A stretch of 64,000 bases of DNA from a virus. How positions within the stretch are numbered: position 1 is the stretch's first letter; every line of letters begins with the position of its first letter. The stretch lies in IMG/VR virus record IMGVR_UViG_3300032288_004964, positions 248,001 to 312,000 of that record; one strand, 5' to 3'. The notes below the pieces were generated by a model. The model was given only the letters and a program-made list of their open reading frames with translations. It had not been told where the DNA came from and did not search any database. Shown here in pieces: positions 6,407 through 34,920 of this stretch. The translations under genes were made by a program, and so were the position numbers.

Positions 6407-6502
6407 TGCGGGGTAGAGAAGTGGTCAACTCGCTAGGCTCATTTTAGACTATCTAATGAAGAAATAACCTAGAGATCACAGGTTCGAATCCTGTCCCCGC
6501 TA
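6407..6502 (+). tRNA. tRNA-Met(CAT), initiator-like, with ~23-nt insertion in the anticodon loop
   Basis: Acceptor strands TGCGGGG and CCCCGCT pair except at position 1:72 (U-U), as initiator tRNAs mismatch there. The D-arm GAG/CTC and T-arm ACAGG-TTCGAAT-CCTGT are normal. The anticodon stem CTAGG/CCTAG encloses 30 nt instead of 7: CTCAT, then an insert with a TTAGA-CTA-TCTAA hairpin, then AA. Removing 23 nt restores CTCATAA. Either a mini-intron at the usual 37/38 site or a modified, possibly nuclease-resistant loop. CCA is not encoded. Confidence 0.7.
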
Positions 6503-6656: not shown

Positions 6657-6737
6657 ATGAACACAACTACTAACATATTGTCTTATTATTATGAGGAGAA
6701 AAACCCTTCTATCAGACAAGTATTGTTTGTGTTGTAA
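6657..6737 (+). CDS. Leader peptide 1 (Tyr-Tyr-Tyr-Glu-Glu), attenuator of tRNA cluster 1
   Basis: A 26-residue ORF behind a strong promoter and directly followed by an intrinsic terminator. Residues 10-14 are YYYEE (TAT TAT TAT GAG GAG). The cluster downstream carries Tyr(GTA) and Glu(TTC) tRNAs. Twelve nt after the last Glu codon, ATCAGAC (6711-6717) is the exact complement of GTCTGAT in the terminator's 5' arm. This fits classical attenuation: stalling on Tyr or Glu codons would favour the antiterminator pairing. Too short to be a normal protein gene; regulatory role inferred. Confidence 0.8.
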   Translation: MNTTTNILSYYYEEKNPSIRQVLFVL

Positions 6738-6757
6738 TTATTATTATAATATTAAAT

Positions 6758-6792
6758 GAAACCCAGTCTGATTATCAGACTGGGTTTTTTGT
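6758..6792 (+). terminator. Attenuator terminator 1
   Basis: AAACCCAGTCTGA - TTA - TCAGACTGGGTTT, 13 bp followed by a T run. Its 5' arm can pair instead with 6711-6717 inside leader ORF 1. Confidence 0.85.
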
Positions 6793-6813: not shown

Positions 6814-6815
6814 TT

Positions 6816-6906
6816 GGGAGTATAACGTCAGCGGAATGTAAGCCGCCCCTCGTAAATATATGGCGTATGGCTTGAGGTAACTAGTGTTCGAATCCTGGTA
6901 CTCCCA
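6816..6906 (+). tRNA. tRNA-Tyr-like, aberrant (enlarged anticodon region)
   Basis: The acceptor GGGAGTA/TACTCCC is identical to the normal tRNA-Tyr at 7660. The D-arm ACGT/ATGT is acceptable. The anticodon region CGCC...GGCG encloses about 14 nt containing CTCGTAAA, close to the Tyr loop CTGTAAA but expanded. The T-stem CTAGTG/CCTGG has an extra T. Reads as a Tyr tRNA with insertions. Confidence 0.55.
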
Positions 6907-6911
6907 CAAAT

Positions 6912-6983
6912 GGTCTTGTCGACTAATGGTTAGGTCAACACCCTTTCAAGGTGTAGATGCGGGTTCGATCCCCGTCAAGACTA
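6912..6983 (+). tRNA. tRNA-Glu(TTC)
   Basis: Canonical cloverleaf: acceptor GGTCTTG/CAAGACT, anticodon arm ACACC-CTTTCAA-GGTGT, T-arm GCGGG-TTCGATC-CCCGT. CCA is not encoded. Confidence 0.9.
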
Positions 6984-6992
6984 CAAATAAAT

Positions 6993-7078
6993 GCTACGGT
7001 ATGCAAACCGGAATAAGCGACCAGACTTTCAATCTGGACATCGAAAGATGTGTGCGGGTTCGAGCCCCGTCCGTAGTA
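6993..7078 (+). tRNA. tRNA with TTC anticodon on a class II (long variable arm) body
   Basis: Acceptor GCTACGG/CCGTAGT; anticodon arm CCAGA-CTTTCAA-TCTGG (TTC, Glu); variable arm ACATC-GAAA-GATGT. A long variable arm is normal for Leu, Ser and bacterial Tyr, not Glu, so anticodon and body disagree. Isotype uncertain (Glu by anticodon; Tyr/Ser/Leu by body). Confidence 0.75.
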
Positions 7079-7083
7079 CAAAA

Positions 7084-7222
7084 ATATCAGGAGTACCTGT
7101 CGTAGAAAGTTAATCACTTTCCCTGATATTTATAAAACTCAATGAAGTAAGTGACTTTAGGTAGTACCGACAGGAGGGTGAATTTGATTAAGTTCTTTGG
7201 GGTTCGAATCCCACCATTGAGT
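7084..7222 (+). ncRNA. tRNA-like element with upstream pseudoknotting hairpin
   Basis: The 3' part (7138-7222) has acceptor CTCAATG/CATTGAG and a T-loop TTCGAAT but no clean anticodon arm. Directly upstream, ATATCAGG (7084-7091) pairs with CCTGATAT (7122-7129), and the loop string CCTGTCG (7096-7102) is the exact complement of CGACAGG (7168-7174) inside the tRNA-like part. Two segments folding into one RNA; isotype unknown. Confidence 0.5.
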
Positions 7223-7228
7223 TGTTTT

Positions 7229-7312
7229 GGGAATGCGCCAACGTTGGAGAGTTGGGCTAGTCTGTAAAACTAGTGGCTTATGCCTGAGTGAGTTCGATTC
7301 TCACCATTCCCA
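7229..7312 (+). tRNA. tRNA-Tyr(GTA)
   Basis: Acceptor GGGAATG/CATTCCC, anticodon arm CTAGT-CTGTAAA-ACTAG, class II variable arm GGC-TTAT-GCC, T-arm GTGAG/CTCAC. Normal bacterial Tyr features. Confidence 0.9.
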
Positions 7313-7316
7313 CAAG

Positions 7317-7541
7317 ATGAAGATAATAGATTTTTTAATACAAGTAGGTACCTTCAAAAGTAAAGGTGAGGCAATTAGAGCTGTAAAAAACAAAATGACT
7401 TTGAAGATAAGAGGTACTGATGAAAGTAATGTTCAATATAAAGATATCATAATAGATGAAAGTAATATAAATGGTTATATCTATATTGAAAATGAAAAGG
7501 TTTATGTAACAAATTTTGATATAAAAGATTTGGTAGATTGA
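7317..7541 (+). CDS. Small protein with S4-like RNA-binding segment
   Basis: 74 codons from the ATG at 7317, four nt after the tRNA-Tyr (an upstream in-frame start at 7227 would read through the tRNA and is rejected). Residues 3-25, IDFLIQVGTFKSKGEAIRAV, resemble the S4 motif at the C-terminus of tyrosyl-tRNA synthetase (LL..G...SKSEARR.I). Its position next to Tyr tRNAs suggests tRNA or RNA binding. Similarity judged by eye only; it could be an unrelated small protein. Confidence 0.6.
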   Translation: MKIIDFLIQVGTFKSKGEAIRAVKNKMTLKIRGTDESNVQYKDIIIDESNINGYIYIENEKVYVTNFDIKDLVD

Positions 7542-7552
7542 ACTTTTTTATT

Positions 7553-7560
7553 TATCTTTG
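7553..7560 (+). promoter_or_regulatory. Host-type promoter for tRNA-Glu/Tyr pair
   Basis: TATCTTTG with TTTG at 7529-7532 (20-nt spacer, inside the end of the preceding gene), 18 nt before the tRNA at 7579. Confidence 0.65.
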
Positions 7561-7578
7561 TAAAACAAATATAAAAAT

Positions 7579-7651
7579 GCACCGTTAGTGAAGCGGCTAA
7601 CACGTCTCCCTTTCACGGAGAAGATCATCGGTTCGAACCCGATACGGTGTA
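7579..7651 (+). tRNA. tRNA-Glu(TTC)
   Basis: Acceptor GCACCGT/ACGGTGT (G-U at 1:72), anticodon arm TCTCC-CTTTCAC-GGAGA, T-arm ATCGG-TTCGAAC-CCGAT. Canonical. Confidence 0.9.
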
Positions 7652-7659
7652 CAAATTTT

Positions 7660-7739
7660 GGGAGTATCGCATAGCGGCAATTGCAGTAGACTGTAAATCT
7701 ACCCTTTCGAGTTCGAAGGTTCGAGTCCTTCTACTCCCA
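7660..7739 (+). tRNA. tRNA-Tyr(GTA)
   Basis: Acceptor GGGAGTA/TACTCCC, anticodon arm GTAGA-CTGTAAA-TCTAC, extended variable region, T-arm GAAG-GTTCGAGT-CCTTC. Canonical Tyr; its acceptor is shared with the aberrant copy at 6816. Confidence 0.9.
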
Positions 7740-7743
7740 CAAA

Positions 7744-8476: not shown

Positions 8477-8560
8477 ATGAAAAATTTACATAACATATCA
8501 ATAGCGATTATAGCGGGCGGCGCGGGGAGCGACTGTCATTGGCTGAGTTATGTGTTGTAA
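8477..8560 (+). CDS. Leader peptide 2 (Ile/Ala/Gly run), attenuator of tRNA cluster 2
   Basis: 27-residue ORF whose core is ISIAIIAGGAG, written with codons otherwise rare in this AT-rich genome (ATA, GCG, GGC, GGG). The downstream cluster encodes Ile(TAT), Gly(TCC) twice, Gly(GCC) and Ala(TGC). GACTG (8531-8535), right after the Gly codons, can pair with CAGTC in the terminator's 5' arm, a weaker antiterminator than in the other leaders. Regulatory role inferred by analogy with leaders 1, 3, 4 and 5. Confidence 0.75.
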   Translation: MKNLHNISIAIIAGGAGSDCHWLSYVL

Positions 8561-8587: not shown

Positions 8588-8618
8588 AAACCCAGTCACA
8601 AAATGACTGGGTTTTTTT
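8588..8618 (+). terminator. Attenuator terminator 2
   Basis: AAACCCAGTCA - CAAAA - TGACTGGGTTT plus T run, immediately upstream of tRNA-Ile. Confidence 0.85.
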
Positions 8619-8627
8619 AATTTATAT

Positions 8628-8701
8628 AGGTGAGTAGCTTAGATGGTAAAAGCATGTGTCTTATACACACAAGATAGTGGGATCGTTACCCACCTCACCT
8701 A
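8628..8701 (+). tRNA. tRNA-Ile(TAT)
   Basis: Acceptor AGGTGAG/CTCACCT, anticodon arm TGTGT-CTTATAC-ACACA (TAT, reads AUA), T-arm GTGGG-ATCGTTA-CCCAC with the unusual ATCGTTA T-loop shared by several tRNAs here. AUA codons occur three times in leader 2. Confidence 0.85.
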
Positions 8702-8716
8702 CTGAAAAAAATAAAA

Positions 8717-8926
8717 ATGAAAGGAAAAATGAAAAGTTGAAATTGAATTGTTGGTTTATTTATAGATGTGTTAATAGTAATATCTATTTTCACCGTGTTA
8801 AATAAGAATATTAAATGTCGTATTTATGAAAATGAATATGAGACATGGGTACCTGACTTAAACGGTAACATACAACGTAAAGAAACTAAAACAATTGTTA
8901 TTAACTTCTTAAGAAGATTAGGATAA
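8717..8926 (+). pseudogene. Small membrane protein frame with two in-frame UGA codons
   Basis: From ATG 8717 the frame reads seven codons, then TGA (8738), Asn, TGA (8744), then an open frame to TAA at 8924-8926. The intact part from a GTG at 8768 gives 52 residues beginning MLIVISIFTVLNKNIK. If both UGAs were read as Trp the product would be a plausible N-terminally anchored membrane protein. UGA is a normal stop elsewhere (ATGA overlaps), so the choices are a decayed gene, a GTG-started short gene, or local recoding. Confidence 0.4.
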
Positions 8927-8929
8927 CAA

Positions 8930-9003
8930 GCAATAGTGGTGTTAATGGTTTAGCACATCTGACTTCCAATCAGAAGGTGTCGGTTCGAATCCGGTCTAAT
9001 GCA
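8930..9003 (+). tRNA. tRNA-Gly(TCC)
   Basis: Acceptor GCAATAG/CTAATGC (one mismatch), D-arm GTGT/GCAC, anticodon arm TCTGA-CTTCCAA-TCAGA, T-arm GTCGG/CCGGT. Confidence 0.8.
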
Positions 9004-9050
9004 CAAAGTGAGAAAACACTTAAAAACCATCCCACCAGGATGTAAAAATC

Positions 9051-9133
9051 GCGGGTGTAGTATAGTGGAGGCGAAAGCCGTATTATATCGGTCTTCCAAA
9101 CCGAAGATGTGAGTTCGATTCTCATCACCCGCT
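9051..9133 (+). tRNA. tRNA-Gly(TCC) with hairpin inserted in the D-loop
   Basis: Acceptor GCGGGTG/CACCCGC with U73, anticodon arm TCGGT-CTTCCAA-ACCGA, T-arm GTGAG/CTCAT. The D-loop carries an extra GGC-GAAA-GCC hairpin (GNRA tetraloop) after GTGGA. Otherwise canonical; 83 nt. Confidence 0.85.
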
Positions 9134-9146
9134 CAAATAATGTAAT

Positions 9147-9222
9147 GGGGTTACATGTACCAAGGCTTAGGCGAGACTGCTTTGCAAGCAATCTGTGGTG
9201 GGTTCGATTCCCACTAGCTCCA
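9147..9222 (+). tRNA. tRNA-Ala(TGC)
   Basis: Acceptor GGGGTTA/TAGCTCC, anticodon loop TTTGCAA in a CTGC/GCA stem, T-arm GTGGG/CCCAC. Confidence 0.85.
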
Positions 9223-9234
9223 CAAAAAAAACAA

Positions 9235-9307
9235 GCGAAAGTAGCTCAGTTGGTAGAGCGTAACCTTGCCAAGGTTAAGGTCGCGGGTTCGAGACCCGTC
9301 TTTCTCT
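9235..9307 (+). tRNA. tRNA-Gly(GCC)
   Basis: Acceptor GCGAAAG/CTTTCTC (one mismatch) with U73, D-arm GCTC/GAGC, anticodon arm TAACC-TTGCCAA-GGTTA, T-arm GCGGG/CCCGT. Confidence 0.85.
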
Positions 9308-9453
9308 CAAGATAGTAGCAATGTAAGAGTGTTACTTCGTATTTCAAACGACTAGTTCAGGTTCGAATCCTGGGTTCCGCTCAAAATAATATAAGCGGAA
9401 TTAGTGTAACGGCAGCACAGTAAAAACACACTCAGCAAATTTTCTCTATCTTA
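9308..9453 (+). tRNA. Circularly permuted tRNA gene (3' half before 5' half), anticodon TTC
   Basis: 3' half 9337-9381: anticodon loop ATTTCAA, ACGAC, T-arm TCAGG-TTCGAAT-CCTGG, acceptor GTTCCGC, U73. 5' half 9395-9420: acceptor GCGGAAT, U8 A9, D-arm GTGT-AACGGCA-GCAC, A26, G27. The two acceptor strands pair, and G9420 joined to T9337 gives a perfect 5-bp anticodon stem. Leader and trailer also pair: GAGTGT (9327-9332) with ACACTC (9428-9433), AAGATAG (9309-9315) with CTATCTT (9446-9452), a bulge-helix-like layout as in permuted algal and archaeal genes. Anticodon says Glu; the GCGG acceptor with U73 looks Gly-like. Confidence 0.65.
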
Positions 9454-9456
9454 TTA

Positions 9457-9526
9457 GGGCCAGATGCCAACGGCAGGTCAACTCGCTTGCACCGAGATTG
9501 TTTGGGTTCGATTCCCACTGTGTCCA
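9457..9526 (+). tRNA. tRNA-Ala(TGC)-like, degenerate acceptor
   Basis: Anticodon arm CTCG-CTTGCAC-CGAG, T-arm TTGGG-TTCGATT-CCCAC, 3' acceptor TGTGTCC followed by ACCA. The 5' strand GGGCCAG pairs poorly with it, and the downstream GGACA (about 9537-9541) could pair with TGTCC instead. Probably an aberrant second Ala copy. Confidence 0.5.
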
Positions 9527-9560
9527 CCAATGTATTTGGACAAGAACCTAAATTAAAATA

Positions 9561-9592
9561 AAAAAAGCCTCATTTGATGAGGCTTTTTTTAT
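9561..9592 (+). terminator. Bidirectional terminator
   Basis: AAAAGCCTCAT - TTG - ATGAGGCTTTT with A and T runs on both sides, separating tRNA cluster 2 from the convergent histidine kinase gene. Confidence 0.8.
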
Positions 9593-11056
9593 TTAAGATA
9601 TTTTAATTTTCATTTTTGTTCCGGTGTCTATTTTATCACAGGATAAATCAAATTTGTGTTCTTTTAATATGGCAAAACAGATATTTAGTCCAAGCCCGGA
9701 TTCACTTTCTTTCTCTACTGAATAAGAAGATAATATTTTATCAAATTTATTTTGAGTCAATCCTATACCATTGTCTTCAATAATTAAATATTCATTCTCC
9801 ATGTATATTTTAACTTTTTTACTTTCGCTTTTATTATATTTTAAACCATTTTTTATTAGATTATCAATAGCGTTCCAGAAAAGTGTCTCATTTACTATAG
9901 CATTTGGTAAATCTTCGACTTCTACTTGTGTAGAATATGATGTTGTGAGAATACATCTATTTAATAAATCTTTTAAATTTACATCAGTTTTATCTAACAC
10001 TACATTTTGTTTAACAAGATTGGTAAACTCATATACCGACTTATAAACTTTTTGAGTATGATTAAGTCCTTCTTTAATCATTTTAACTGGTCCATCAATT
10101 TTTAATTTTTGTAATTCTTCTGGAGTAACTCTTTTCTCTAAAGAGTTTATACCTCGAGGAATATAAGTATTTATACCAGAGTGCATATCATGTCTAATAA
10201 TTCTAGCGGCATGTTCTAAATAAGTATTCTTTTTATTAATATCTCTTAGTTGTTTTTCAATTTCTTTATCTTGTACTTTAATTGTTTTTCTTTGTAAAAG
10301 AGCAAGTATAGAAAGCCCCATAATTGAAGCACATATAATTGCCCATATTAAATAAGTTCTTAATTTTGATTTTTGAACTTCTAAATCTTTATTTTCTACT
10401 TGTAACTCTCCTTTAACAACAGTAAGATCTATTATGTCTTTTTCTTTAGATAATGTTTTAATTGTACCTGTCTTAGAATCTATTACTTGTTGATTAGCAT
10501 TAGCCTTTTGTAGTGAATCTTTTTCAAATATTAATTTTTTAATTTTGTTATCAATTTCTTCAGCTACCTTTTTTAAGTCTTCTTTTGATAAATTATCATA
10601 AGATTGTGGAAGATTTTTAATAAAATTTTGGTCATTCTTAACTTGATTAGCTTCATTTTCATCTAATTCTGCAGGAGTAGGTGCGGGTACCATTATCTCT
10701 TTGATAAGATAAATATACTCTTTAGAAGCAGATATTTGTGATTCAATAGGACGTATTTTTGAGTTAATAGACTTGTTGAACCACCAATTAGCTCCCTCAA
10801 ATTCTTTTCTCGAATAAAGAGCCAATCCTATTTCTAAACTAATTGATTTTTCTTCAGGTGATAATTCCGAATTTTCGCTATCTCTGATTTTATAGATATC
10901 AATTTTATCCATAAGATTATTAATGTAATTATCATCTGGGCAAATAGGAACTCCTTGGTCCCAAACAGATTCAACACTTTCTGTTGTATCTATCTTAGTT
11001 TGTGAATAAGAGGCCAAACAGATAAGGCTAAATAATATTAAGAAATATTTTTTCAT
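9593..11056 (-). CDS. Membrane sensor histidine kinase
   Basis: 487 codons. N-terminal signal peptide of flavobacterial type (MKKYFLILFSLICLASYSQ). A periplasmic helical region follows, then a transmembrane segment (about residues 235-255, LIWAIICASIMGLSILALL), a coiled linker, an H-box (RIIRHDMHSGIN, His about 289), and a HATPase_c domain with N-box (AIDNLIKNGLKYN), G1 (EDNGIGL) and G2 (ESGLGL). Complete and apparently functional. No response regulator lies nearby, so it may act on a host regulator. Very unusual cargo for a phage, probably captured from a Bacteroidota host. Confidence 0.9.
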   Translation of the reverse strand: MKKYFLILFSLICLASYSQTKIDTTESVESVWDQGVPICPDDNYINNLMDKIDIYKIRDSENSELSPEEKSISLEIGLALYSRKEFEGANWWFNKSINSKIRPIESQISASKEYIYLIKEIMVPAPTPAELDENEANQVKNDQNFIKNLPQSYDNLSKEDLKKVAEEIDNKIKKLIFEKDSLQKANANQQVIDSKTGTIKTLSKEKDIIDLTVVKGELQVENKDLEVQKSKLRTYLIWAIICASIMGLSILALLQRKTIKVQDKEIEKQLRDINKKNTYLEHAARIIRHDMHSGINTYIPRGINSLEKRVTPEELQKLKIDGPVKMIKEGLNHTQKVYKSVYEFTNLVKQNVVLDKTDVNLKDLLNRCILTTSYSTQVEVEDLPNAIVNETLFWNAIDNLIKNGLKYNKSESKKVKIYMENEYLIIEDNGIGLTQNKFDKILSSYSVEKESESGLGLNICFAILKEHKFDLSCDKIDTGTKMKIKIS

Positions 11057-11729: not shown

Positions 11730-12317
11730 ATGATTAAAATTTTAGGTAAAATCCCAAAAGGTGAGTTTGGTTTAGCATGTTCCGGTGGAGTTGATTCTAT
11801 GGCTATTCTTGATTTCCTTATTACCGGGAATCATATTCCACATATTTTATACTTTAATCACAATACAAAACATGGTGATGATGCTGAAAAGTTTATTACT
11901 GATTATTGTAAAGAAAAAAATCTTAAATTAACAATCGGTAGAACATATCTTAAACCAACTTCAAATAAGGAAAAGATTTGGAGTAATGCTCGTTATGAAT
12001 TCTTTTCAAAATTTGATTTTCCTATCATGACTTGTCACCACTTAGATGATTGTGTAGAAACATATATCTTCTCTTGTCTGAGAGGATTTCAATCTGTTAT
12101 CCCATACTCTAAAGGTAATGTGATTAGACCGTTCTTATTGAATGAAAAATCGGTATTTACTAAATGGTGCATTGATAAGGAAGTTCCATTTATTCAAGAT
12201 GATTCAAATGATTGCTTAGACTATTCAAGAAATAGAATTAGACATCAAATTGTACCTGAGTCTTTATTAGTGAACCCAGGATTGAAAACAGTTGTTAAGA
12301 AAATGGTATCAAAATAA
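11730..12317 (+). CDS. tilS: tRNA(Ile)-lysidine synthase (TilS), core domain
   Basis: 195 codons. The PP-loop SGGVDSMA at residues 18-25 is the ATP-pyrophosphatase signature. MTCHHLDDCVETYIFS and SRNRIRHQIVP match the TilS core. It lacks the C-terminal domain of full-length bacterial TilS, so it is a minimal form. TilS converts C34 of CAU-anticodon tRNA-Ile to lysidine so that AUA is read as Ile. The window has several CAT tRNAs, one of which may be its substrate. Cytosolic; transcribed from its own host-type promoter. Confidence 0.9.
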   Translation: MIKILGKIPKGEFGLACSGGVDSMAILDFLITGNHIPHILYFNHNTKHGDDAEKFITDYCKEKNLKLTIGRTYLKPTSNKEKIWSNARYEFFSKFDFPIMTCHHLDDCVETYIFSCLRGFQSVIPYSKGNVIRPFLLNEKSVFTKWCIDKEVPFIQDDSNDCLDYSRNRIRHQIVPESLLVNPGLKTVVKKMVSK

Positions 12318-13890: not shown

Positions 13891-14001
13891 ATGACAACAA
13901 TTAATTTAAATATGAACATGAATACACTGACAGTGGTGAATAATACGTTATGTATTAGACCTTGTGAGGGTTTTGATCTATTTAAAGGATTTGTCAATTA
14001 A
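13891..14001 (+). CDS. Leader peptide 3 (Thr/Ile/Asn/Leu/Met/Val/Cys/Arg), attenuator of tRNA cluster 3
   Basis: 36-residue ORF reading MTTINLNMNMNTLTVVNNTL then CIRPC. Apart from Pro, residues 2-22 use only Thr, Ile, Asn, Leu, Met, Val, Cys and Arg, the eight isotypes identified in the array at 14076-15596. TGAGGGTTTTGA (13965-13976), just after the Arg and Cys codons, is the exact complement of TCAAAACCCTCA (14028-14039), which contains the terminator 5' arm: a perfect 12-bp antiterminator. Strongest structural support for attenuation among the five leaders. The function is inferred. Confidence 0.85.
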   Translation: MTTINLNMNMNTLTVVNNTLCIRPCEGFDLFKGFVN

Positions 14002-14029
14002 TGTAACAAATTTTTAATAAAAGATACTC

Positions 14030-14064
14030 AAAACCCTCAGTCAAAAACTGAGGGTTTTTTTATT
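14030..14064 (+). terminator. Attenuator terminator 3
   Basis: AAAACCCTCAG - TCAAAAA - CTGAGGGTTTT plus T run; competes with the 12-bp helix 13965-13976 : 14028-14039. Confidence 0.9.
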
Positions 14065-14075
14065 ATAAGAAATTT

Positions 14076-14148
14076 GGACTGGAAGCTAGTATGGTACAGC
14101 TGCGGCCTGTTAAGCCGAGGATAGTGGGATCGTTACCCACCCAGTCCG
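14076..14148 (+). tRNA. tRNA-Asn(GTT)
   Basis: Acceptor GGACTGG/CCAGTCC, D-arm GCT/AGC, anticodon arm CGGC-CTGTTAA-GCCG, T-loop ATCGTTA, G73. Position 8 is A rather than U. Confidence 0.85.
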
Positions 14149-14164
14149 CAAAAAGAAATAAAAA

Positions 14165-14243
14165 CGGTGCGTACCGAGCCACACTGATAATGTGGATATT
14201 CGTAATGGTGTTGCAAATGTAGGTTCAAATCCTATCGTACCGA
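14165..14243 (+). tRNA. tRNA-Ile(GAT)-like lacking a D-arm
   Basis: Acceptor CGGTGCG/CGTACCG, anticodon arm CCACA-CTGATAA-TGTGG, T-arm GTAGG/CCTAT. Only seven nt (TACCGAG) separate the acceptor from the anticodon stem, so there is no room for a D-arm. A D-arm-like hairpin GTAA-TGGTG-TTGC sits instead between the anticodon and T-arms. Paired with the normal Ile(GAT) at 14672. Confidence 0.65.
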
Positions 14244-14249
14244 CAAAAT

Positions 14250-14322
14250 GGTTCCTTCGTTCAACTGGACAGGACATCGGTCTTCTAAACCGAGGATATG
14301 GGTTCGAATCCCGTAGGGACTA
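14250..14322 (+). tRNA. tRNA-Arg(TCT)
   Basis: Acceptor GGTTCCT/AGGGACT, anticodon arm TCGGT-CTTCTAA-ACCGA, T-arm ATGGG/CCCGT. Reads AGA/AGG. Confidence 0.85.
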
Positions 14323-14384
14323 CTGAGAGAGACCGTTTATAGTTTTTAACAGGACACAAGAGTGGAAGCGTAGAAAACTAAAAT

Positions 14385-14468
14385 GCCGGAGTGGCGAAAT
14401 GGTTAATACGCGCTAGCCTTAGAAGCTAGTGTCTATATGACGTGTGGGTTCGAGTCCCACCTCCGGTA
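14385..14468 (+). tRNA. tRNA-Leu(TAG)
   Basis: Acceptor GCCGGAG/CTCCGGT, anticodon arm CTAGC-CTTAGAA-GCTAG, class II variable arm, T-arm GTGGG/CCCAC. The spacer before it (about 14335-14380) holds a TAGTTTT...AAAACTA hairpin of unknown role. Confidence 0.9.
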
Positions 14469-14500
14469 CTGAAGTGAAACTAAAGTTCACTACTAAAAAT

Positions 14501-14586
14501 TACTGTGTTGCCGTAGTGGCCGAACGGTCCAGACTGTTAATCTGGTGACGAATAGTCCAACGTAGGTTCGAATCCTACCACAGTAG
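14501..14586 (+). tRNA. tRNA-Asn(GTT) with long variable arm
   Basis: Acceptor TACTGTG/CACAGTA, anticodon arm CCAGA-CTGTTAA-TCTGG, T-arm GTAGG/CCTAC, G73. The variable region contains a GAC-GAATA-GTC hairpin, atypical for Asn. Second Asn copy in the array. Confidence 0.8.
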
Positions 14587-14591
14587 CAAAA

Positions 14592-14664
14592 GCCCCCGTA
14601 GCTTAATCGGGAAAGCACTTGTTTTACATACAAGATAGAGTCGGATCGTAACCGGCCGGGGGTA
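14592..14664 (+). tRNA. tRNA-Val(TAC)
   Basis: Acceptor GCCCCCG/CGGGGGT, anticodon arm CTTGT-TTTACAT-ACAAG, T-loop ATCGTAA. Confidence 0.85.
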
Positions 14665-14671
14665 CAAATAT

Positions 14672-14744
14672 TGTCAGTTAGCTCATTTGGTAGAGCACTT
14701 GTCTGATACACAAGAGGTGGTGGGATCGTAACCCGCACTGACAA
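14672..14744 (+). tRNA. tRNA-Ile(GAT)
   Basis: Acceptor TGTCAGT/ACTGACA, D-arm GCTC/GAGC, anticodon arm CTTGT-CTGATAC-ACAAG, T-arm GTGGG/CCCGC. Canonical. Confidence 0.9.
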
Positions 14745-14750
14745 CAAAAT

Positions 14751-14833
14751 GGTACTGTGGCCGAGCGGTGTCGAAAGACGAGAGGCAGTAGTCTGCAAAA
14801 CTACTCACACTGGTTCGAATCCAGTCAGTACCT
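14751..14833 (+). tRNA. tRNA-Cys(GCA) with hairpin inserted in the D-loop
   Basis: Acceptor GGTACTG/CAGTACC, U73, anticodon arm GTAGT-CTGCAAA-ACTAC, T-arm ACTGG/CCAGT. The D-loop carries an extra GTC-GAAA-GAC hairpin between GCGGT and GAGAGGC. Confidence 0.85.
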
Positions 14834-14845
14834 CAAAAAGAGTTC

Positions 14846-14917
14846 GCTCTCTAAGCATTAATGGTGATGCGCTAGTCTTGTAAACTAGATAAATCGGATC
14901 GTTACCGGTAGAGAGCT
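14846..14917 (+). tRNA. tRNA-Thr(TGT)
   Basis: Acceptor GCTCTCT/AGAGAGC, D-arm GCAT/ATGC, anticodon arm CTAGT-CTTGTAA-ACTAG, T-loop ATCGTTA. Confidence 0.85.
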
Positions 14918-14922
14918 CAAAT

Positions 14923-15068
14923 CGGTAGGACCCTATATTCTGTGGTAACTTCTAGAGAAGCCACAAGATGAATCGGTCTGGGTTAAAAACCAAACTTGGT
15001 TATTTGATATTCTAGAAATCATCATTTAATTAAGATTGGGAAGGTAGGTTCGAATCCTACCCTACTGT
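14923..15068 (+). tRNA. 146-nt tRNA-like gene (possible tRNA-Cys by elimination), internal insertions
   Basis: The ends are tRNA-like: acceptor CGGTAGG/CCTACTG, T-arm GTAGG-TTCGAAT-CCTAC, U73. The interior is about twice normal length. It includes TGTGG-TAA-CTTC-TAGA-GAAG-CCACA (a stable hairpin in the D-region) and a roughly 55-nt segment between TCGGTCT and AGATTGG where the anticodon loop should be. No clear anticodon. Every other isotype in the array occurs twice and Cys once, so this is probably the second Cys; that is elimination, not proof. May contain an intron. Confidence 0.5.
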
Positions 15069-15075
15069 CAAATAT

Positions 15076-15147
15076 TGTTCTGTAGCTCAATGGGAGAGCA
15101 CTTCCTTGACATGGAAGAGGTAGTCGGATCGTTACCGACCAGAACAA
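15076..15147 (+). tRNA. tRNA-Val(GAC)
   Basis: Acceptor TGTTCTG/CAGAACA, D-arm GCTC/GAGC, anticodon arm CTTCC-TTGACAT-GGAAG, T-arm GTCGG/CCGAC. Confidence 0.85.
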
Positions 15148-15148
15148 C

Positions 15149-15267
15149 TTAATGGATGGTGATTGAAAGAGTTACTTCGTTTAATGGAAAAACAATTGAC
15201 TTCTAATCAGTGCACGGTGGTTCGATTCCACCAGTATAAAACCTCTTTCTACCTTTTCCTCCATTAA
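15149..15267 (+). tRNA. tRNA-Arg(TCT)-like embedded in an extended helix
   Basis: The core has D-arm GTTT/AAAC, anticodon arm ATTGA-CTTCTAA-TCAGT and T-arm GGTGG/CCACC, but the acceptor is only TACT/AGTA. It continues into GAAAGAG (15165-15171) : CTCTTTC (15243-15249) and TTAATGGA (15149-15156) : TCCATTAA (15260-15267). The D-loop repeats TTTAATGGA (15180-15188), so the 3' strand has two possible partners. Either an unusual precursor or a switchable RNA. Confidence 0.5.
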
Positions 15268-15269
15268 AT

Positions 15270-15349
15270 GCTGATGTGGCACAGTGGCGACTGCACCAAC
15301 CTTGTAAGTTGGAACACAAACATCGGGGGTTCGAGTCCCTCCATCAGCT
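15270..15349 (+). tRNA. tRNA-Thr(TGT), second copy
   Basis: Acceptor GCTGATG/CATCAGC, anticodon arm CCAAC-CTTGTAA-GTTGG, long variable region, T-arm GGGGG/CCCTC. Confidence 0.85.
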
Positions 15350-15356
15350 CAAAAAT

Positions 15357-15443
15357 GCTTCTGTGGCGAAATTGGCAGCACGCGAGGGACTTAAAATCCC
15401 TTGGACCGGAAAGTCCGTATCGGTTCGAGTCCGATCAGAAGTA
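15357..15443 (+). tRNA. tRNA-Leu(TAA)
   Basis: Acceptor GCTTCTG/CAGAAGT, anticodon arm AGGGA-CTTAAAA-TCCCT, class II variable arm GGAC-CGGAAA-GTCC, T-arm ATCGG/CCGAT. Confidence 0.9.
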
Positions 15444-15449
15444 CTAAAA

Positions 15450-15521
15450 TGCGATATAGCTTAATGGAAGAGCGGCTCCAGACATAGGGAGTTAGTCTTG
15501 GTTCGATTCCAGGTATCGCGA
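15450..15521 (+). tRNA. tRNA with CAT in an 8-nt anticodon loop (Met or Ile2)
   Basis: Acceptor TGCGATA/TATCGCG, stem GCTCC/GGAGT enclosing AGACATAG (8 nt, no U33), T-arm CTTGG/CCAGG. The most tRNA-like reading is anticodon CAT. Could be Met, or tRNA-Ile2 modified by the phage TilS; 8-nt loops are known in frameshift-suppressor tRNAs. Confidence 0.65.
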
Positions 15522-15526
15522 CAAAT

Positions 15527-15596
15527 GGCGTGGCTTAGTGGAAAAGAGCAGTCTCTCATAAGGACTGATAAGTGGGTTCGAACCCCATACACGCTA
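15527..15596 (+). tRNA. tRNA-Met(CAT)
   Basis: Acceptor GGCGTGG/ACACGCT (one mismatch), anticodon arm AGTCT-CTCATAA-GGACT, T-arm GTGGG-TTCGAAC-CCCAT. Last gene of the 16-member array. Confidence 0.8.
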
Positions 15597-16247
15597 CTAA
15601 TTAATTTTATTAGGATATCCTAACTTAGCCTTATTAACTATGTTTATATGTTCAACATTTTTTGGGAATAATCTTGGATGATAATTATCATATTGGTCTA
15701 AAAACTTAAAATCTTCTTTTTTAAGTTTCATTCCATCAAATCTATTTAAGAAGTTTATAAATGATTGTAAAGATTCATCTACTAAACCAAATACAGTATT
15801 ACTTCTATCAAAATTAGAACCATAAGAAGTATATTGAATTACTTTTATTTTATTCGGTTCTTCAATACTAAATTCACAGGTCATGGCATCACCATATGTT
15901 ATATCAATAGTTAATGTTATATTACCATCTTTGTCATCTTTAGCAAAATAAATATCAAATTCTAAAGTATCGGGTGTTCCCCATATCTCTCCTGATTCTT
16001 TACTACCAAGTGGTGTAGAAGCATAAGTTATCTGAACCATGTCAGAGTGTAACATTATATTATCTTTCTTAAATTTATAAAGATTATTGTGATAATTTAT
16101 TGTAATGAATTCTGATAGTTCGTTTTCCCATCTCTTATCATAGATAGTATTTAAAGTATTAGTCTTACTATCTATATTAGGTTTTATATTACCATTAGCT
16201 TTAATTGTAGCTTCAATATCTTCATTAAATCTTCTTAAATATTTCAT
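15597..16247 (-). CDS. Hypothetical protein, paralogue of 22092-22820
   Basis: 216 codons beginning MKYLRRFNEDIEA, a capsid-targeting-like start. The body (about residues 90-200) matches the product of 22092-22820: both contain LEFDI/LQFDI, TYGDxM-EF-I, and a DESLxxxNFxNRFxxxxxxxDFKF block. No outside family recognised. Convergent with the tRNA array: its stop begins one base after tRNA-Met. A CAAATATATACAATATG start context suggests late expression. Confidence 0.7.
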   Translation of the reverse strand: MKYLRRFNEDIEATIKANGNIKPNIDSKTNTLNTIYDKRWENELSEFITINYHNNLYKFKKDNIMLHSDMVQITYASTPLGSKESGEIWGTPDTLEFDIYFAKDDKDGNITLTIDITYGDAMTCEFSIEEPNKIKVIQYTSYGSNFDRSNTVFGLVDESLQSFINFLNRFDGMKLKKEDFKFLDQYDNYHPRLFPKNVEHINIVNKAKLGYPNKIN

Positions 16248-16464: not shown

Positions 16465-17922
16465 ATGAAAAATATTGTAACAAGAATTGCTCCTTCTCCA
16501 ACTGGTAAGTTTGTCCATTTAGGAAACTTAAGAACTTTACTTTATAATTACTTCCTTGCTAAAAGACACGGTGGTAAATTCCTTGTGCGTTTAGAAGATA
16601 CTGACCGTGACCGTTATACTCCAGAATTTCTACAATATTTTAAAGATACTTGTGATTGGTTAGGAATTGTACCTGATAATTCTTTTTGGAATCCAGATCC
16701 ATCAATTGGTTCATTTATTCAATCAGAAAGAGATTATTCTGACAAAGTTAAATTTCTATTAGATAATGGATTGGCTTATTATGCTTTTGATACAAAAGAT
16801 GATTTAGATATTTTAAAGTCTAAAGGTCTTAAATATGATGCAACCACTCGTATGTCTATGAATAACTCATTGACAAGACCTGATACTGATATTAATTCTG
16901 TTCCTTATGTTATTCGTTTTGCTGTTACACCAGATGTAGATATTACTTTTACAGATGCAATCTTAGGTGATATTACTATTAACACAAATACTTTAGATGA
17001 TAAGGTTTTAATTAAATCCAATGGTATTGGTTCTTATCATCTTTGTAATGTTTGTGATGATCATGATATGAAAGTTACTCATGTTCTTCGTGGACAAGAA
17101 TGGGTAAATTCTACTCCTTTTCATATTCTTATGTATAAAGCATTTGGTTGGGATATTCCTACTTTTGCTCACTTACCTCTAATTATGAATCCTGATGGTA
17201 AAGGTAAACTAGCAAAAAGAACGGCTGCTAAATATGGTATTCCTATTGCGCCACTTGGTTATACTGATGATAATGGAGTCTATATCCCAGGTTGGAAAGA
17301 TTTAGGTTATGATCCTAAGGCATTTATCAATTCACTTGCTTTAATTGGTTGGAATCCTGGTAATGATGTTGAAGTTATGTCCTTAGATGATATGATTAAT
17401 TCATTTTCATTAGACAGAGTTCATAAATCAGGTGCTCGTTTTGATATTGATAAAGCAAAATGGATTAACTCACACTATTTAAAGGCTACTGATAATAAAG
17501 ATTTAATTCCTTTTGTTAATATTGTGGATAATAGATATTCTAATGATAAATTAGATAAGATTATTACTTTAGCAAAAGATAGAGCTACTTTTAAGACAGA
17601 CTTAAATAATATTGTTGATTTGTTTTTTGATACACCTGTTATTACAGACTATTCAAAAATTGATGATAACTATATAAAAGTAATGTCTAGTTTTGTTGAT
17701 AATATTGACTCTGTTGATTTCAATGATACTGATAGTATTAAATTAACAATTTCTTCTATCTGTGATGGGTTTGGAATTAAGATTGGTAAAGTAATGCCTG
17801 GTTTGAGAATTGCTTTAGTTGGTGGAATAAGTGGACCAGATTTAATGACCACGATGTCAATTCTTGGTAAAGACCAAGTAAAATTGAGAATTCTTAACTC
17901 TACAAAAACAGTTACTGTATAA
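16465..17922 (+). CDS. gltX: Glutamyl-tRNA synthetase
   Basis: 485 codons, class I synthetase of normal bacterial GluRS length. The N-terminal RIAPSPTGKFVHLGNLRTLL contains the HIGH-type motif (HLGN), VRLEDTDRDRY follows, and KLAKRTAAKYG (about residues 250-260) is the KMSKS-type loop, with Ala in place of Ser. GALSI-type GluRS features continue to the C-terminal anticodon-binding domain. It would charge tRNA-Glu, of which the window encodes at least five copies or variants (6912, 6993, 7579, 34845, 35000). Expressed with the PspC-like gene from a host-type promoter, followed by an intrinsic terminator. Confidence 0.92.
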   Translation: MKNIVTRIAPSPTGKFVHLGNLRTLLYNYFLAKRHGGKFLVRLEDTDRDRYTPEFLQYFKDTCDWLGIVPDNSFWNPDPSIGSFIQSERDYSDKVKFLLDNGLAYYAFDTKDDLDILKSKGLKYDATTRMSMNNSLTRPDTDINSVPYVIRFAVTPDVDITFTDAILGDITINTNTLDDKVLIKSNGIGSYHLCNVCDDHDMKVTHVLRGQEWVNSTPFHILMYKAFGWDIPTFAHLPLIMNPDGKGKLAKRTAAKYGIPIAPLGYTDDNGVYIPGWKDLGYDPKAFINSLALIGWNPGNDVEVMSLDDMINSFSLDRVHKSGARFDIDKAKWINSHYLKATDNKDLIPFVNIVDNRYSNDKLDKIITLAKDRATFKTDLNNIVDLFFDTPVITDYSKIDDNYIKVMSSFVDNIDSVDFNDTDSIKLTISSICDGFGIKIGKVMPGLRIALVGGISGPDLMTTMSILGKDQVKLRILNSTKTVTV

Positions 17923-22987: not shown

Positions 22988-23086
22988 ATGAAAAACTTAA
23001 ACTTAAATATCGTTAACCCGCAACCTCAAGTTGTAATCGATCAGGATCCTGATACGATAGGGGCTAACTATGTGGTTTTAAGTTAA
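22988..23086 (+). CDS. Leader peptide 4 (Pro/Gln/Asp), attenuator of tRNA cluster 4
   Basis: 32-residue ORF with the core NPQPQVVIDQDPD: three Pro, three Gln, three Asp. Downstream lie Asp and Pro tRNAs (two each) and then, after leader 5, two Gln tRNAs and GlnRS. CTAACT (23064-23069) plus GGTT (23074-23077) in the leader can pair with AGTTAG and AACC of the terminator's 5' arm. Same layout as leaders 1, 3 and 5. Confidence 0.8.
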   Translation: MKNLNLNIVNPQPQVVIDQDPDTIGANYVVLS

Positions 23087-23110: not shown

Positions 23111-23146
23111 AACCCAGTTAGTCGAAAGATTAACTGGGTTTTTTGT
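23111..23146 (+). terminator. Attenuator terminator 4
   Basis: AACCCAGTTAGTC - GAAA - GATTAACTGGGTT (13 pairs with one G-U, GNRA loop) plus T run. Confidence 0.85.
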
Positions 23147-23223: not shown

Positions 23224-23297
23224 GGTTCGTTAGTAGAGTTGGTTACAATATCGCACTGTCACTGCGAAGGTCACGGGTTCGAATCCCGTACGAACCG
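23224..23297 (+). tRNA. tRNA-Asp(GTC)
   Basis: Acceptor GGTTCGT/ACGAACC, G73, anticodon arm TCGCA-CTGTCAC-TGCGA, T-arm CACGGG/CCCGT. Canonical. Confidence 0.9.
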
Positions 23298-23302
23298 CAA
23301 AA

Positions 23303-23374
23303 GGTCTTGTCGTCCAATGGTAGGATAACCCGTTGTCTGCGGGAAGGTTGTGGGTTCGAATCCCATCAGGACCG
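23303..23374 (+). tRNA. tRNA-Asp(GTC), atypical anticodon loop
   Basis: Acceptor GGTCTTG/CAGGACC, G73, D-arm GTCC/GGAT, anticodon stem CCCG/CGGG with loop TTGTCTG (GTC, but U37 instead of a purine), T-arm GTGGG/CCCAT. Second Asp copy; isotype less certain. Confidence 0.75.
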
Positions 23375-23383
23375 CTAAAATTT

Positions 23384-23456
23384 CGGGGTGTAGCGCAGTT
23401 GGTAGCGCGCCTGGTTTGGGACCAGGAGGTCGTCAGTTCGAGCCTGGCCACTCCGA
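23384..23456 (+). tRNA. tRNA-Pro(TGG)
   Basis: Acceptor CGGGGTG/CACTCCG, D-arm GCGC/GCGC, anticodon arm CCTGG-TTTGGGA-CCAGG, T-arm GTCAG/CTGGC. Canonical. Confidence 0.9.
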
Positions 23457-23469
23457 CAAAAAATTAAAA

Positions 23470-23554
23470 CGAGATGTAGCCTAGAGGTTTCCGTATGGAT
23501 AAAGGCACTTGGTTTGGGACCAAGACGACGCAGGTTCGAATCCTGCCATCTCGA
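23470..23554 (+). tRNA. tRNA-Pro(TGG) with hairpin inserted in the D-loop
   Basis: Acceptor CGAGATG/CATCTCG, D-stem GCCT/AGGC, anticodon arm CTTGG-TTTGGGA-CCAAG, T-arm GCAGG/CCTGC. The D-loop holds an extra TTCC-GTAT-GGA hairpin. Second Pro copy. Confidence 0.85.
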
Positions 23555-23585
23555 CAAAGAAAAAAAATATTAATAAATAGAAATT

Positions 23586-23639
23586 ATGAGAACAACAACA
23601 CAATACCAACAACAACAACAAATTAATCCAACAGATTGA
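23586..23639 (+). CDS. Leader peptide 5 (poly-Gln), attenuator of tRNA-Gln and GlnRS
   Basis: 17-residue ORF MRTTTQYQQQQQINPTD with six CAA Gln codons. CAGATTGA (23632-23639), 10 nt after the last CAA, is the exact complement of TCAATCTG (23677-23684) in the terminator's 5' arm and loop. Directly downstream are two tRNA-Gln(TTG) genes and the GlnRS gene. This is textbook attenuator geometry: Gln-tRNA shortage would stall the ribosome on CAA and permit read-through. No separate promoter seen; probably read on from leader 4. Confidence 0.85.
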   Translation: MRTTTQYQQQQQINPTD

Positions 23640-23704: not shown

Positions 23705-23778
23705 TGTCCGGTGGCGAAATTGGTAGACGCACTAAGCTTTGACCTTAGTTTTTGTAGGTTCGAACCCTACCCGGACAG
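23705..23778 (+). tRNA. tRNA-Gln(TTG)
   Basis: Acceptor TGTCCGG/CCGGACA, G73, anticodon arm CTAAG-CTTTGAC-CTTAG, T-arm GTAGG/CCTAC. Starts one base after the attenuator T run. Confidence 0.9.
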
Positions 23779-23785
23779 CAACAAT

Positions 23786-23857
23786 TGGAAAATAGTATAA
23801 TGGTTATTATTTCTGACTTTGAATCAGAAGATACAGGTTCGATCCCTGTTTTTCCAA
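23786..23857 (+). tRNA. tRNA-Gln(TTG), second copy
   Basis: Acceptor TGGAAAA/TTTTCCA, anticodon arm TCTGA-CTTTGAA-TCAGA, T-arm ACAGG-TTCGATC-CCTGT. Twenty nt before the GlnRS start. Confidence 0.9.
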
Positions 23858-23876
23858 CTAAAAAAATATAAAAATT

Positions 23877-25511
23877 ATGAATTTCATAGAAGAAAAAATA
23901 TTAGAAAAAGGAAATCTCGATAAGTTAAAACTTCGTTTTCCACCAGAACCAAATGGGGCTATACTAAACGATGGTAGAGTTGTCGGTGGTCTTCACTTAG
24001 GACATGCTAAATCCATTATACTAAATTTTGGATTAGCAGAAAAGTATAATGCTACATGTGTGTTAAGGTTTGATGATACAAATCCAACTACTGAAAGAAA
24101 AGAGTTTGTAGATTCAATGATTGAGGATATCAAATGGCTTGGTTATACTCCAAGTGAAATCAGATACACATCTGATTATTTTGATTTTCTTTATGAATGT
24201 GCTGTTACTTTAATTAAGAAAGGATTAGCTTATGTTGATGATTCAACATCTGAAGAAATTGCTAACTTAAAAGGAACTCCAACTTCAGTTGGTAAAGACT
24301 CACCTTATAAATCTAGAAGTATAGAAGAAAACTTAGACTTATTTAATAGAATGAGATTAGGTGAATTCTATGAAGGTTCTAAAATCTTGAGAGCCAATAT
24401 TGATATGACTTCTCCTAATATGATTTTAAGAGATCCGGTTCTTTACAGAATAATATCTAAGTCACATCACAGAACTGGTGATACTTGGAAGATTTATCCA
24501 ATGTATGACTTTGCTCATCCACTTTCAGATTATAAAGAAGGTATCACTGATTCCCTTTGTACTTTAGAATTTGAAGTTCATAGACCTTTATATATGTGGG
24601 TCTTAGAAAATTGTGATTTAGAAAATTCTTTACCAGAAGAAACTGAGTTTGCTCGTTTGAACATTGACTATACGGTTATGTCAAAGAGAAAACTAAAAAG
24701 ATTAGTTGAAGAAGGATTTGTTGATGGGTGGAATGATCCAAGAATGCCAACTATTTCTGGTTTAAGAAGAAGAGGTTTTACTCCAAACGCTATTAAAGAT
24801 TTCTGCGATAGAATTTCTGTTACCAGAAAAGAATCAGTTGTTTCTTATTTGCTTTTAGAAGAATGTTTAAGAACTGATTTGAATATAGTTACCAATAGAT
24901 TAATGGGTGTTATGGATCCAGTTAAGTTAGTTATTACTAATTGGGATAGCGGAACTGAAATGGTTGAAGTTGAAAATAATCCTGGCGATGAAAGTGCTGG
25001 AGTGAGAATGATTCCTTTTAGTGGTGAATTATTTATTGAAAGAGAAGATTTCAGAGAAGAAGCCAATAAAAAATTTCATAGATTGAAATTAGGTGGAGAA
25101 GTAAGACTAAAAGGAGCTTATGTTATTATGGCTAACGAAGTTATCAAAGATGAATTTGGGGAAATCACTGAGATCAGATGTACTTATGATCCTTTAACAA
25201 GATCGGGTATGACTTTTGAAAGAAAGATTAAAGGAACTATTCACTGGGTATCTGCTGAACACGGAGTTAGAATGGATGTAAATGAATATGATAGATTGTT
25301 CAATGATGAATCACCAGATAAAAATGAAGATGATTTTATCAATTATATCAACCCAGATTCACTTATAATTAATGATAAGGCAATCTTTGAACCTCACGTT
25401 TTAAACGTCAAGGCACCAGTTCAAATGATGAGAAAGGGGTATTATATTTTAGATACTGACGGTAAAAGTTTCAATAAAACGGTAAGTTTGAAAGAAGGTT
25501 GGGTAGGTTAA
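23877..25511 (+). CDS. glnS: Glutaminyl-tRNA synthetase
   Basis: 544 codons, close to bacterial GlnRS length. RFPPEPNGAILNDGRVVGGL-HLGHAKSIIL contains the class I HIGH motif (HLGH), LRFDDTNPTTE follows, and VMSKRKLKRLVEEG (about residues 260-275) is the KMSKS loop; DGWNDPRMPTISGLRRRGF is diagnostic of GlnRS. The C-terminal beta-barrel anticodon-binding domains are present. It would charge the two tRNA-Gln genes just upstream; tRNAs and synthetase share one transcript controlled by the poly-Gln attenuator. Ends in a 4-nt overlap with a convergent gene. Confidence 0.95.
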   Translation: MNFIEEKILEKGNLDKLKLRFPPEPNGAILNDGRVVGGLHLGHAKSIILNFGLAEKYNATCVLRFDDTNPTTERKEFVDSMIEDIKWLGYTPSEIRYTSDYFDFLYECAVTLIKKGLAYVDDSTSEEIANLKGTPTSVGKDSPYKSRSIEENLDLFNRMRLGEFYEGSKILRANIDMTSPNMILRDPVLYRIISKSHHRTGDTWKIYPMYDFAHPLSDYKEGITDSLCTLEFEVHRPLYMWVLENCDLENSLPEETEFARLNIDYTVMSKRKLKRLVEEGFVDGWNDPRMPTISGLRRRGFTPNAIKDFCDRISVTRKESVVSYLLLEECLRTDLNIVTNRLMGVMDPVKLVITNWDSGTEMVEVENNPGDESAGVRMIPFSGELFIEREDFREEANKKFHRLKLGGEVRLKGAYVIMANEVIKDEFGEITEIRCTYDPLTRSGMTFERKIKGTIHWVSAEHGVRMDVNEYDRLFNDESPDKNEDDFINYINPDSLIINDKAIFEPHVLNVKAPVQMMRKGYYILDTDGKSFNKTVSLKEGWVG

Positions 25512-34844: not shown

Positions 34845-34920
34845 GGTCAGTTCGTCTAGCGGCATTCAGGACGGATATCTATTCAGATATCAAACATTGG
34901 TTCGAATCCAATACTGACTA
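34845..34920 (+). tRNA. tRNA-Glu-like, expanded anticodon loop
   Basis: Acceptor GGTCAGT/ACTGACT; D-arm TTCGTCTAGCGGCATTCAGG is typical Glu; stem GATAT/ATATC encloses CTATTCAG (8 nt, contains TTC); T-arm ATTGG/CCAAT. Lies within the giant RNA transcript. Confidence 0.75.

Follow-up and report, generated by a model that had tools for sequence, protein, structure and literature searches.

Leader reading frames that match the amino acids of downstream tRNA arrays: candidate multi-amino-acid attenuators in huge phages

Introduction

The attenuators of the enteric trp, his, thr, ilvGMEDA and pheST operons share a short leader open reading frame (ORF) that is rich in regulatory codons and is followed by mutually exclusive antiterminator and terminator structures. 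Most familiar for sensing a single amino acid, such leaders can read more than one, and those of ilv read three. Theory holds that sensitive attenuators need regulatory codons of low usage and a choice among synonyms (Elf and Ehrenberg, PMC1183508), and rare synonymous codons are indeed another feature of these leaders. Here we describe leaders of the same general plan in a 64,000-nucleotide (nt) stretch of viral DNA, hereafter the window, which spans positions 248,001-312,000 of the 385-kb virus record IMGVR_UViG_3300032288_004964 (G000). The element that drew attention lies at 13891-14001 of the window, in front of an array of 16 tRNA genes. Unlike their enteric counterparts, these leaders precede tRNA genes rather than biosynthetic genes, address up to eight amino acids each, and as a family cover all 20.

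T-box leaders resemble the phage elements in that they sense the state of tRNA, act by antitermination and often stand before synthetase genes. They differ in binding uncharged tRNA directly through a specifier loop, whereas the match in the phage modules resides in a putatively translated ORF and extends over many codons. A search of the 64-kb window found no T-box family match in Rfam at E<=1. No known Rfam leader scored above threshold there either, the Phe_leader hit at 9558-9614 (-) scoring no better than chance (29.8 bits; cut-off 55).

On the side of biology, phage tRNAs have been found to defeat tRNA-cleaving defence by replacing depleted host tRNAs (PMC10264068, PMC11555353). Neither paper mentions attenuation or leaders, and the latter attributes phage tRNA expression to a strong promoter. 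Transfer RNAs and synthetases have been reported in huge phages, including Mahaphages (PMC7162821), and the strings "attenuat" and "leader" do not occur in the main text of that paper. Judged by the similarity of its GlnRS and GltX sequences, G000 is related to these described phages and falls in the same group (LR745206, LR756502). A literature search, with preprints and most subscription journals outside its reach, returned no account of attenuators on phage tRNAs. Attenuation of this class is established; what appears to be new is that phages employ it, on tRNA genes, with leaders that each address as many as eight amino acids and divide all 20 among them.

A 36-residue leader and its 16-gene array

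The leader at 13891-14001 belongs to what we call module 3, which consists of the following elements:

13891..14001, + strand: leader ORF, MTTINLNMNMNTLTVVNNTLCIRPCEGFDLFKGFVN, 36 amino acids, sensor codons at residues 2-23
13965..13976, + strand: region 2, the antiterminator strand of the leader, TGAGGGTTTTGA, pairing perfectly over 12 base pairs (bp) with 14028-14039
14028..14039, + strand: region 3, TCAAAACCCTCA, with which region 2 pairs and which extends into the 5′ arm of the terminator
14031..14064, + strand: intrinsic terminator, comprising a hairpin (14031-14057) and a T run
14076..15599, + strand: array 3, with genes 1-9 being Asn, Ile, Arg, Leu, Asn, Val, Ile, Cys, Thr, and genes 10-16 an unassigned interrupted gene (~14924-15068), Val, Arg, Thr, Leu, Met(CAT), Met(CAT)

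Only Thr, Ile, Asn, Leu, Met, Val, Cys and Arg occur in residues 2-23 of this leader, each of them at least once. An earlier note, made from the sequence alone, had proposed that a 36-residue leader draws on the isotypes of the array behind it, and both the ORF and the perfect 12-bp complement that it named are there. It had drawn the sensor stretch as residues 2-22 with one Pro; the composition holds but the extent does not, as Arg is residue 23 and Pro residue 24. The isotypes that it listed, eight amino acids plus one unassigned gene, agree with assignments made by ARAGORN, Rfam, a covariance model and reading by eye; for the Ile gene at 14165-14243, a Rfam match, the GAT anticodon was taken from the sequence by eye. 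In 282 long ORFs of this phage, 41.9% of residues belong to the eight-member set, yet none of 95,095 22-residue windows in its proteins is composed of these amino acids alone, the best reaching 18 of 22. The terminator arms (14031-14041 with 14047-14057) fold at -17 kcal/mol (z -6.1), and the antiterminator segment 13965-14044 at -23.7 kcal/mol (z -5.5). Because region 2 pairs with 14028-14039, formation of that helix excludes the terminator.

Seven modules that jointly cover 20 amino acids

Module 3 is one of seven in G000, five inside the window and two just upstream (stretch L039), which carries the case beyond the earlier note, as do the codon-class match and the recurrence of the system across huge phages with other partitions, both set out below. 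We scanned for short ORFs that stop just 5′ of an intrinsic terminator with tRNA genes behind it. Every large tRNA array of the genome proved to be part of such a module: a short ORF made up of amino acids cognate to the tRNAs behind it, together with an antiterminator strand, a terminator and the tRNA genes themselves. The seven arrays jointly represent all 20 amino acids, and the true assignment of leaders to arrays is the single best of 5,040 permutations. A blind scan of both strands of G000, with stricter pairing and no requirement for tRNAs, gave four matches, all four of them tRNA leaders. Overlapping alternative ORFs (e.g., 6691-6759) and ORFs running out of tRNA genes were excluded by length and position, not by composition. 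The remaining modules are:

6657..6737, + strand: module 1 leader ORF, MNTTTNILSYYYEEKNPSIRQVLFVL, ending LSYYYEEK, region 2 at 6711-6717
6758..6788, + strand: module 1 terminator hairpin, 14-bp stem
~6815-6906: further interrupted Tyr-like gene of array 1, read by eye
6912..7740, + strand: array 1, Glu, Glu, Tyr, Glu, Tyr
8477..8560, + strand: module 2 leader ORF, MKNLHNISIAIIAGGAGSDCHWLSYVL, ending ISIAIIAGGAGS, region 2 at 8540-8545
8588..8614, + strand: module 2 terminator hairpin, 11-bp stem
8628..9526, + strand: array 2, Ile(TAT), Gly, Gly, Ala, Gly, Ala and at least one unassigned gene
22988..23086, + strand: module 4 leader ORF, MKNLNLNIVNPQPQVVIDQDPDTIGANYVVLS, ending NPQPQVVIDQDPD, region 2 at 23062-23069
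23111..23140, + strand: module 4 terminator hairpin, 13-bp stem
23224..23555, + strand: array 4, Asp, Asp, Pro, Pro (the last gene is called Ser by ARAGORN; the covariance model reads anticodon TGG, taken as Pro)
23586..23639, + strand: module 5 leader ORF, MRTTTQYQQQQQINPTD, given as MRTTTQYQQQQQ, region 2 at 23632-23639, overlapping the stop codon
23668..23698, + strand: module 5 terminator hairpin, 14-bp stem
23705..23858, + strand: array 5, Gln, Gln
23877..25511, + strand: glutaminyl-tRNA synthetase (GlnRS) downstream of array 5, Pfam PF00749, PF03950, PF20974
L039: module A, leader ending THKHFSKSSKWFS, before Phe, His, Trp, three Lys genes and one Ser gene
L039: module B, leader ending SKSSSSRSSR, before Arg(ACG) and three Ser genes

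The leader codons are thus cognate to the tRNA genes downstream and not to biosynthetic enzymes; only module 5 has a synthetase behind it, the remaining modules preceding tRNA genes alone. Where modules stand in tandem, the upstream leader holds the codons of the next array as well, so that leader 4, ahead of module 5, contains Gln codons. A promoter-motif test is only suggestive: TAnnTTTG occurs upstream of module 4 in 11 of 11 genomes and upstream of the nested module 5 in two of nine, but its scattered matches before module B indicate that the motif is common by chance.

Leaders follow their arrays through fusion, splitting and regrouping

Relatives, other Mahaphages among them, were gathered from IMG/VR and GenBank as neighbours of GlnRS and GltX genes. 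They include two uncultured phages of 635-642 kb, LR745206 and LR756502; G000 and LR745206.1 are 76.5% identical in GlnRS and 74.2% in GltX. In all eight genomes with six or seven modules (G000 and seven others), the true pairing is the unique best permutation. Over 35 modules, 124 of the 130 array isotypes are found in the leader of their own array, against a mean coverage of 41% for other arrays. Not one of 1,000,000 permutations does as well as the true pairing, in a test in which genomes of one clade are not independent. The start of one module 5 leader (L010) was assigned by homology. GlnRS genes that lack a tRNA array (L013 and L011), which served as controls, had no leader.

Because genomes of the same clade are not independent, it is the fused, split and regrouped arrays that carry the case. 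Arrays 1 and 2 are fused in three relatives, and the single leaders read LIYIGYIAEGGYEAG (G002), IGAYEAGYAYEG (G005) and AAYEGAYGYEG (G007). The latter two genomes also have a split array 3, in which tRNA-Met and some of the Leu genes form an array 3b with its own leader, NLNMNLLNLMETL, while the sensor part of leader 3a is without Met. In a distant group, whose GlnRS is ~53% identical, the 20 amino acids are distributed over four arrays, with an occasional extra gene:

array P-Q-Y-T-G-K: leader TYQPKQYTQGGKP
array H-W-S-N-I-M-R: leader MTMHIHMISISNWRRNSS
array C-V-L: leader VLLNSVLCLLVL
array F-E-D-A: leader IFDFAFEAAEAD

Further, different partitions are found in LR756504 (636 kb), LR756501 (735 kb) and Prevotella phage Lak-C1. 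Three leaders stand in series in LR756504, and codons drop out of them stepwise as the arrays are passed: KQDKQYQPQYD before Asp, KKQQYKQYQPQYK before Pro, Tyr and Gln, and KKKK before Lys. The match proposed for module 3 is therefore kept among relatives, even where array composition has changed, and neither the window counts nor the permutations reproduce it by chance. By fusing and splitting arrays together with their leaders, evolution has in effect carried out a codon swap of its own.

Codon classes match as well

Where the isoacceptors of one amino acid are split between arrays, the leader takes its codons from the class decoded by the array behind it: AGA or CGC for Arg, ATA or ATT for Ile. 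In counts pooled over related genomes, leaders of Arg AGR arrays contain 13 AGR codons against one CGN, and those of Arg CGN arrays 11 CGN against two AGR; leaders of Ile(TAT) arrays contain 11 ATA against three ATT or ATC, and those of Ile(GAT) arrays none against eight. The matching codons are also rarer among their synonyms than expected (none of 20,000 resamplings was as low), and so are the other codons of the sensor region (p = 0.0002). Across the phage, the sensor codons CGC, CTG, ACG and TCG account for just 0.8% of Arg, 1.0% of Leu, 1.6% of Thr and 2.0% of Ser codons, respectively. Substitutions between homologous leaders favour third codon positions (560 vs 262 and 240 at the other two), and for this reason the leader frames are probably translated.

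Mutually exclusive RNA structures

Every module has, within its leader, a strand that pairs with the terminator's 5′ arm, such that the antiterminator (2:3) and the terminator (3:4) are mutually exclusive. This pairing is stronger within modules than after arms are swapped among orthologues (combined p <= 5e-5), with families A, B, 1, 3 and 5 individually at p < 0.05. With the RNA between the paired strands included, the antiterminator folds as a long hairpin in seven of seven modules, at -12.5 to -23.7 kcal/mol (z -3.0 to -6.0, scores that lean towards the helix because the segment ends were chosen from it). Region 2 follows the last matching codon at a median distance of 10 nt, and predicted folds include a 1:2 protector pairing in the leaders of modules 4 and 5.

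Proposed mechanism and alternatives

Four properties are shown by the sequences themselves: the architecture, the match in amino acids and codons, the way this match follows changes in the arrays, and the covarying exclusive hairpins. From them we infer, at a probability of roughly 0.88, that each large tRNA array is controlled by ribosome-mediated transcription attenuation, in which the leader acts as a multi-amino-acid OR gate and a stalled ribosome turns the array on. RNA polymerase would first transcribe the leader ORF, which bears codons for all amino acids of the downstream tRNAs. Were all aminoacyl-tRNAs plentiful, the ribosome would cross the sensor codons onto region 2, the terminator would form, and the array would stay off. 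Were any one of them scarce, the ribosome would stall upstream of region 2, whose free strand would pair with the 5′ arm of the terminator and let the polymerase continue into the tRNA genes. Region 2 of module 5 overlaps the stop codon and would be covered by a ribosome that reaches the end of that leader. Each leader would then be an OR gate over its own amino acids, and the set would jointly cover 20. The broad sensor of tRNA status that the earlier note contrasted with single-amino-acid attenuators is consistent with everything tested. The purpose would be feedback supply: upon depletion of host tRNAs, for example by tRNA-cleaving defence or late in infection, the matching phage tRNAs would be supplied.

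Several observations weigh against this attenuation model. Between the end of region 2 and the stop codon there are 22-25 nt in modules 3 and A; across such a gap a ribosome at the stop codon would not clearly mask region 2, and masking would have to be kinetic or act via another hairpin. Covariation in families 2, 3b and 4 is not individually significant, Ser codon classes are mixed in the leaders, and leader residues outside the array set occur, mostly near the start. The tRNA cluster at 33.6-35.1 kb of the window has no leader, nor does the Ile-Cys-Asp-Asn-Tyr array of LR756501.1 (L127, minus strand, 1402-1790). Two leaders of one distant-group genome (G012), those of P-Q-Y-T-G-K (L077:4735-4880) and H-W-S-N-I-M-R (L107:9800-9945), lack the 5′ half and the start codon; the remaining frame is still recognisable against G013, and the truncation may be an assembly fault or a real loss. 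Finally, the phages concerned are all metagenomic and uncultured.

The most serious competitor retains the attenuator and changes its signal: what is sensed might mainly be amino-acid starvation, that is, uncharged tRNA, answered by more tRNA and, for Gln, more synthetase. Classical leaders do sense charging, GlnRS does lie downstream of array 5, and a stalled ribosome cannot distinguish uncharged tRNA from loss of the tRNA. Extra tRNA, however, is no cure for lack of an amino acid; nearly all arrays consist of tRNA genes only, and different leaders sense isoacceptor classes of one and the same amino acid, a design better suited to tRNA loss. Shortage of tRNA molecules is for these last two reasons the likelier signal, and we regard starvation sensing as possible but unlikely. 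Far less probable is a switch of opposite polarity, in which a ribosome moving freely along the leader would break up the terminator, and arrays would be transcribed only while the cognate aminoacyl-tRNAs are in supply. The end of the leader and the stop codon do lie close to the terminator in some cases (median 24 nt), where a translating ribosome could interfere, but the strand that frees the array sits downstream of the sensor codons, where a stalled ribosome leaves it open; a ribosome at the stop codon of module 5 covers region 2, and the stalling codons are rare codons.

That the leader peptides themselves act, by binding tRNA, synthetase or ribosome, with a composition that reflects this and no stalling sensor, seems to us very improbable. 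Some leader peptides do work in trans, as peTrpL illustrates (PMC7298713). In the phage leaders, however, peptide order and length are free while composition and codon class track the array, and the RNA pairing covaries. Coincidence or compositional bias in an AT-rich genome, where Asn, Thr, Ile, Leu and Lys are common both overall and near leader starts, has a negligible chance of being right: the window and permutation tests, with not one case in 95,095 and 1,000,000 trials, rule out a chance match, and residues such as Cys, Trp, His, Met and Gln appear where their tRNAs are.

The attenuation model invites two further steps. A link between the leaders and tRNA-cleaving defence as their purpose is conjecture, suggested by the known success of phage tRNAs against such defence. 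More tentative than the mechanism itself, at somewhat less than even odds, is the proposal that the modules form a surveillance network for the whole genetic code, testing 20 amino acids and some isoacceptor classes as an inducible, tRNA-specific counter-defence that would replace lost host tRNAs.

Unusual tRNA genes and neighbouring features

Many tRNAs that carry inserts or unusual T-loops escaped ARAGORN on its own; our own covariance model and a simple finder were used instead, with some genes left unassigned. Genes with inserts of ~20 to 70 nt within or close to the anticodon arm, shorter than a group I intron would be, lie at 6407-6502, ~6815-6906 and ~14924-15068 of the window and at L039:8013-8140; the first of these, a Met CAT gene, has a 30-nt anticodon loop. 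In many phage tRNAs, the T-loop TTCGANN is replaced by ATCGTTA, ATCGTAA or ATCGATA (e.g., window 8628, 14592, 14672, 14846 and 15076; L039:7312 and 7395), in which T54/A58 appear, from the sequences, to be swapped to A54/T58. A hairpin-like insert in the D-loop is seen at 9051-9133, 14751-14833 and 23470-23554. Relatives also carry tRNAs with CTA anticodons, resembling amber suppressors (L053:1630, L057:2412, L060:11189, L130:1585 and 1663).

Within the leaderless cluster of the window, a GOLLD RNA (Rfam RF02032, 270 bits) at 34430-34837 (+) adjoins the tRNA gene at 34845, and the leaderless array of L127 is preceded by an ORF whose end, judged by eye, is like that of ribosomal protein L7/L12. 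A PP-loop ATPase resembling TilS (PF01171) is encoded at 11730-12317, and a glutamyl-tRNA synthetase-like gene (PF00749, PF19269) at 16465-17922; no leader was found before either. An ORF at 9593-11056 (-) combines a signal-peptide-like start with an ATPase domain of the histidine-kinase type (PF02518).

Implications

Why phages carry tRNAs is an old question, and here the leader would name the shortage that each array answers, making codon compensation, tRNA-cleaving defence and host shut-off separately testable. Leaders also help to assign odd tRNA genes, and they could act as sensors for the depletion of single tRNAs in Bacteroidetes. If true, the proposed mechanism would widen the reach of ribosome-mediated attenuation in three ways: it would take in viruses, tRNA genes as targets, and leaders addressing as many as eight amino acids.

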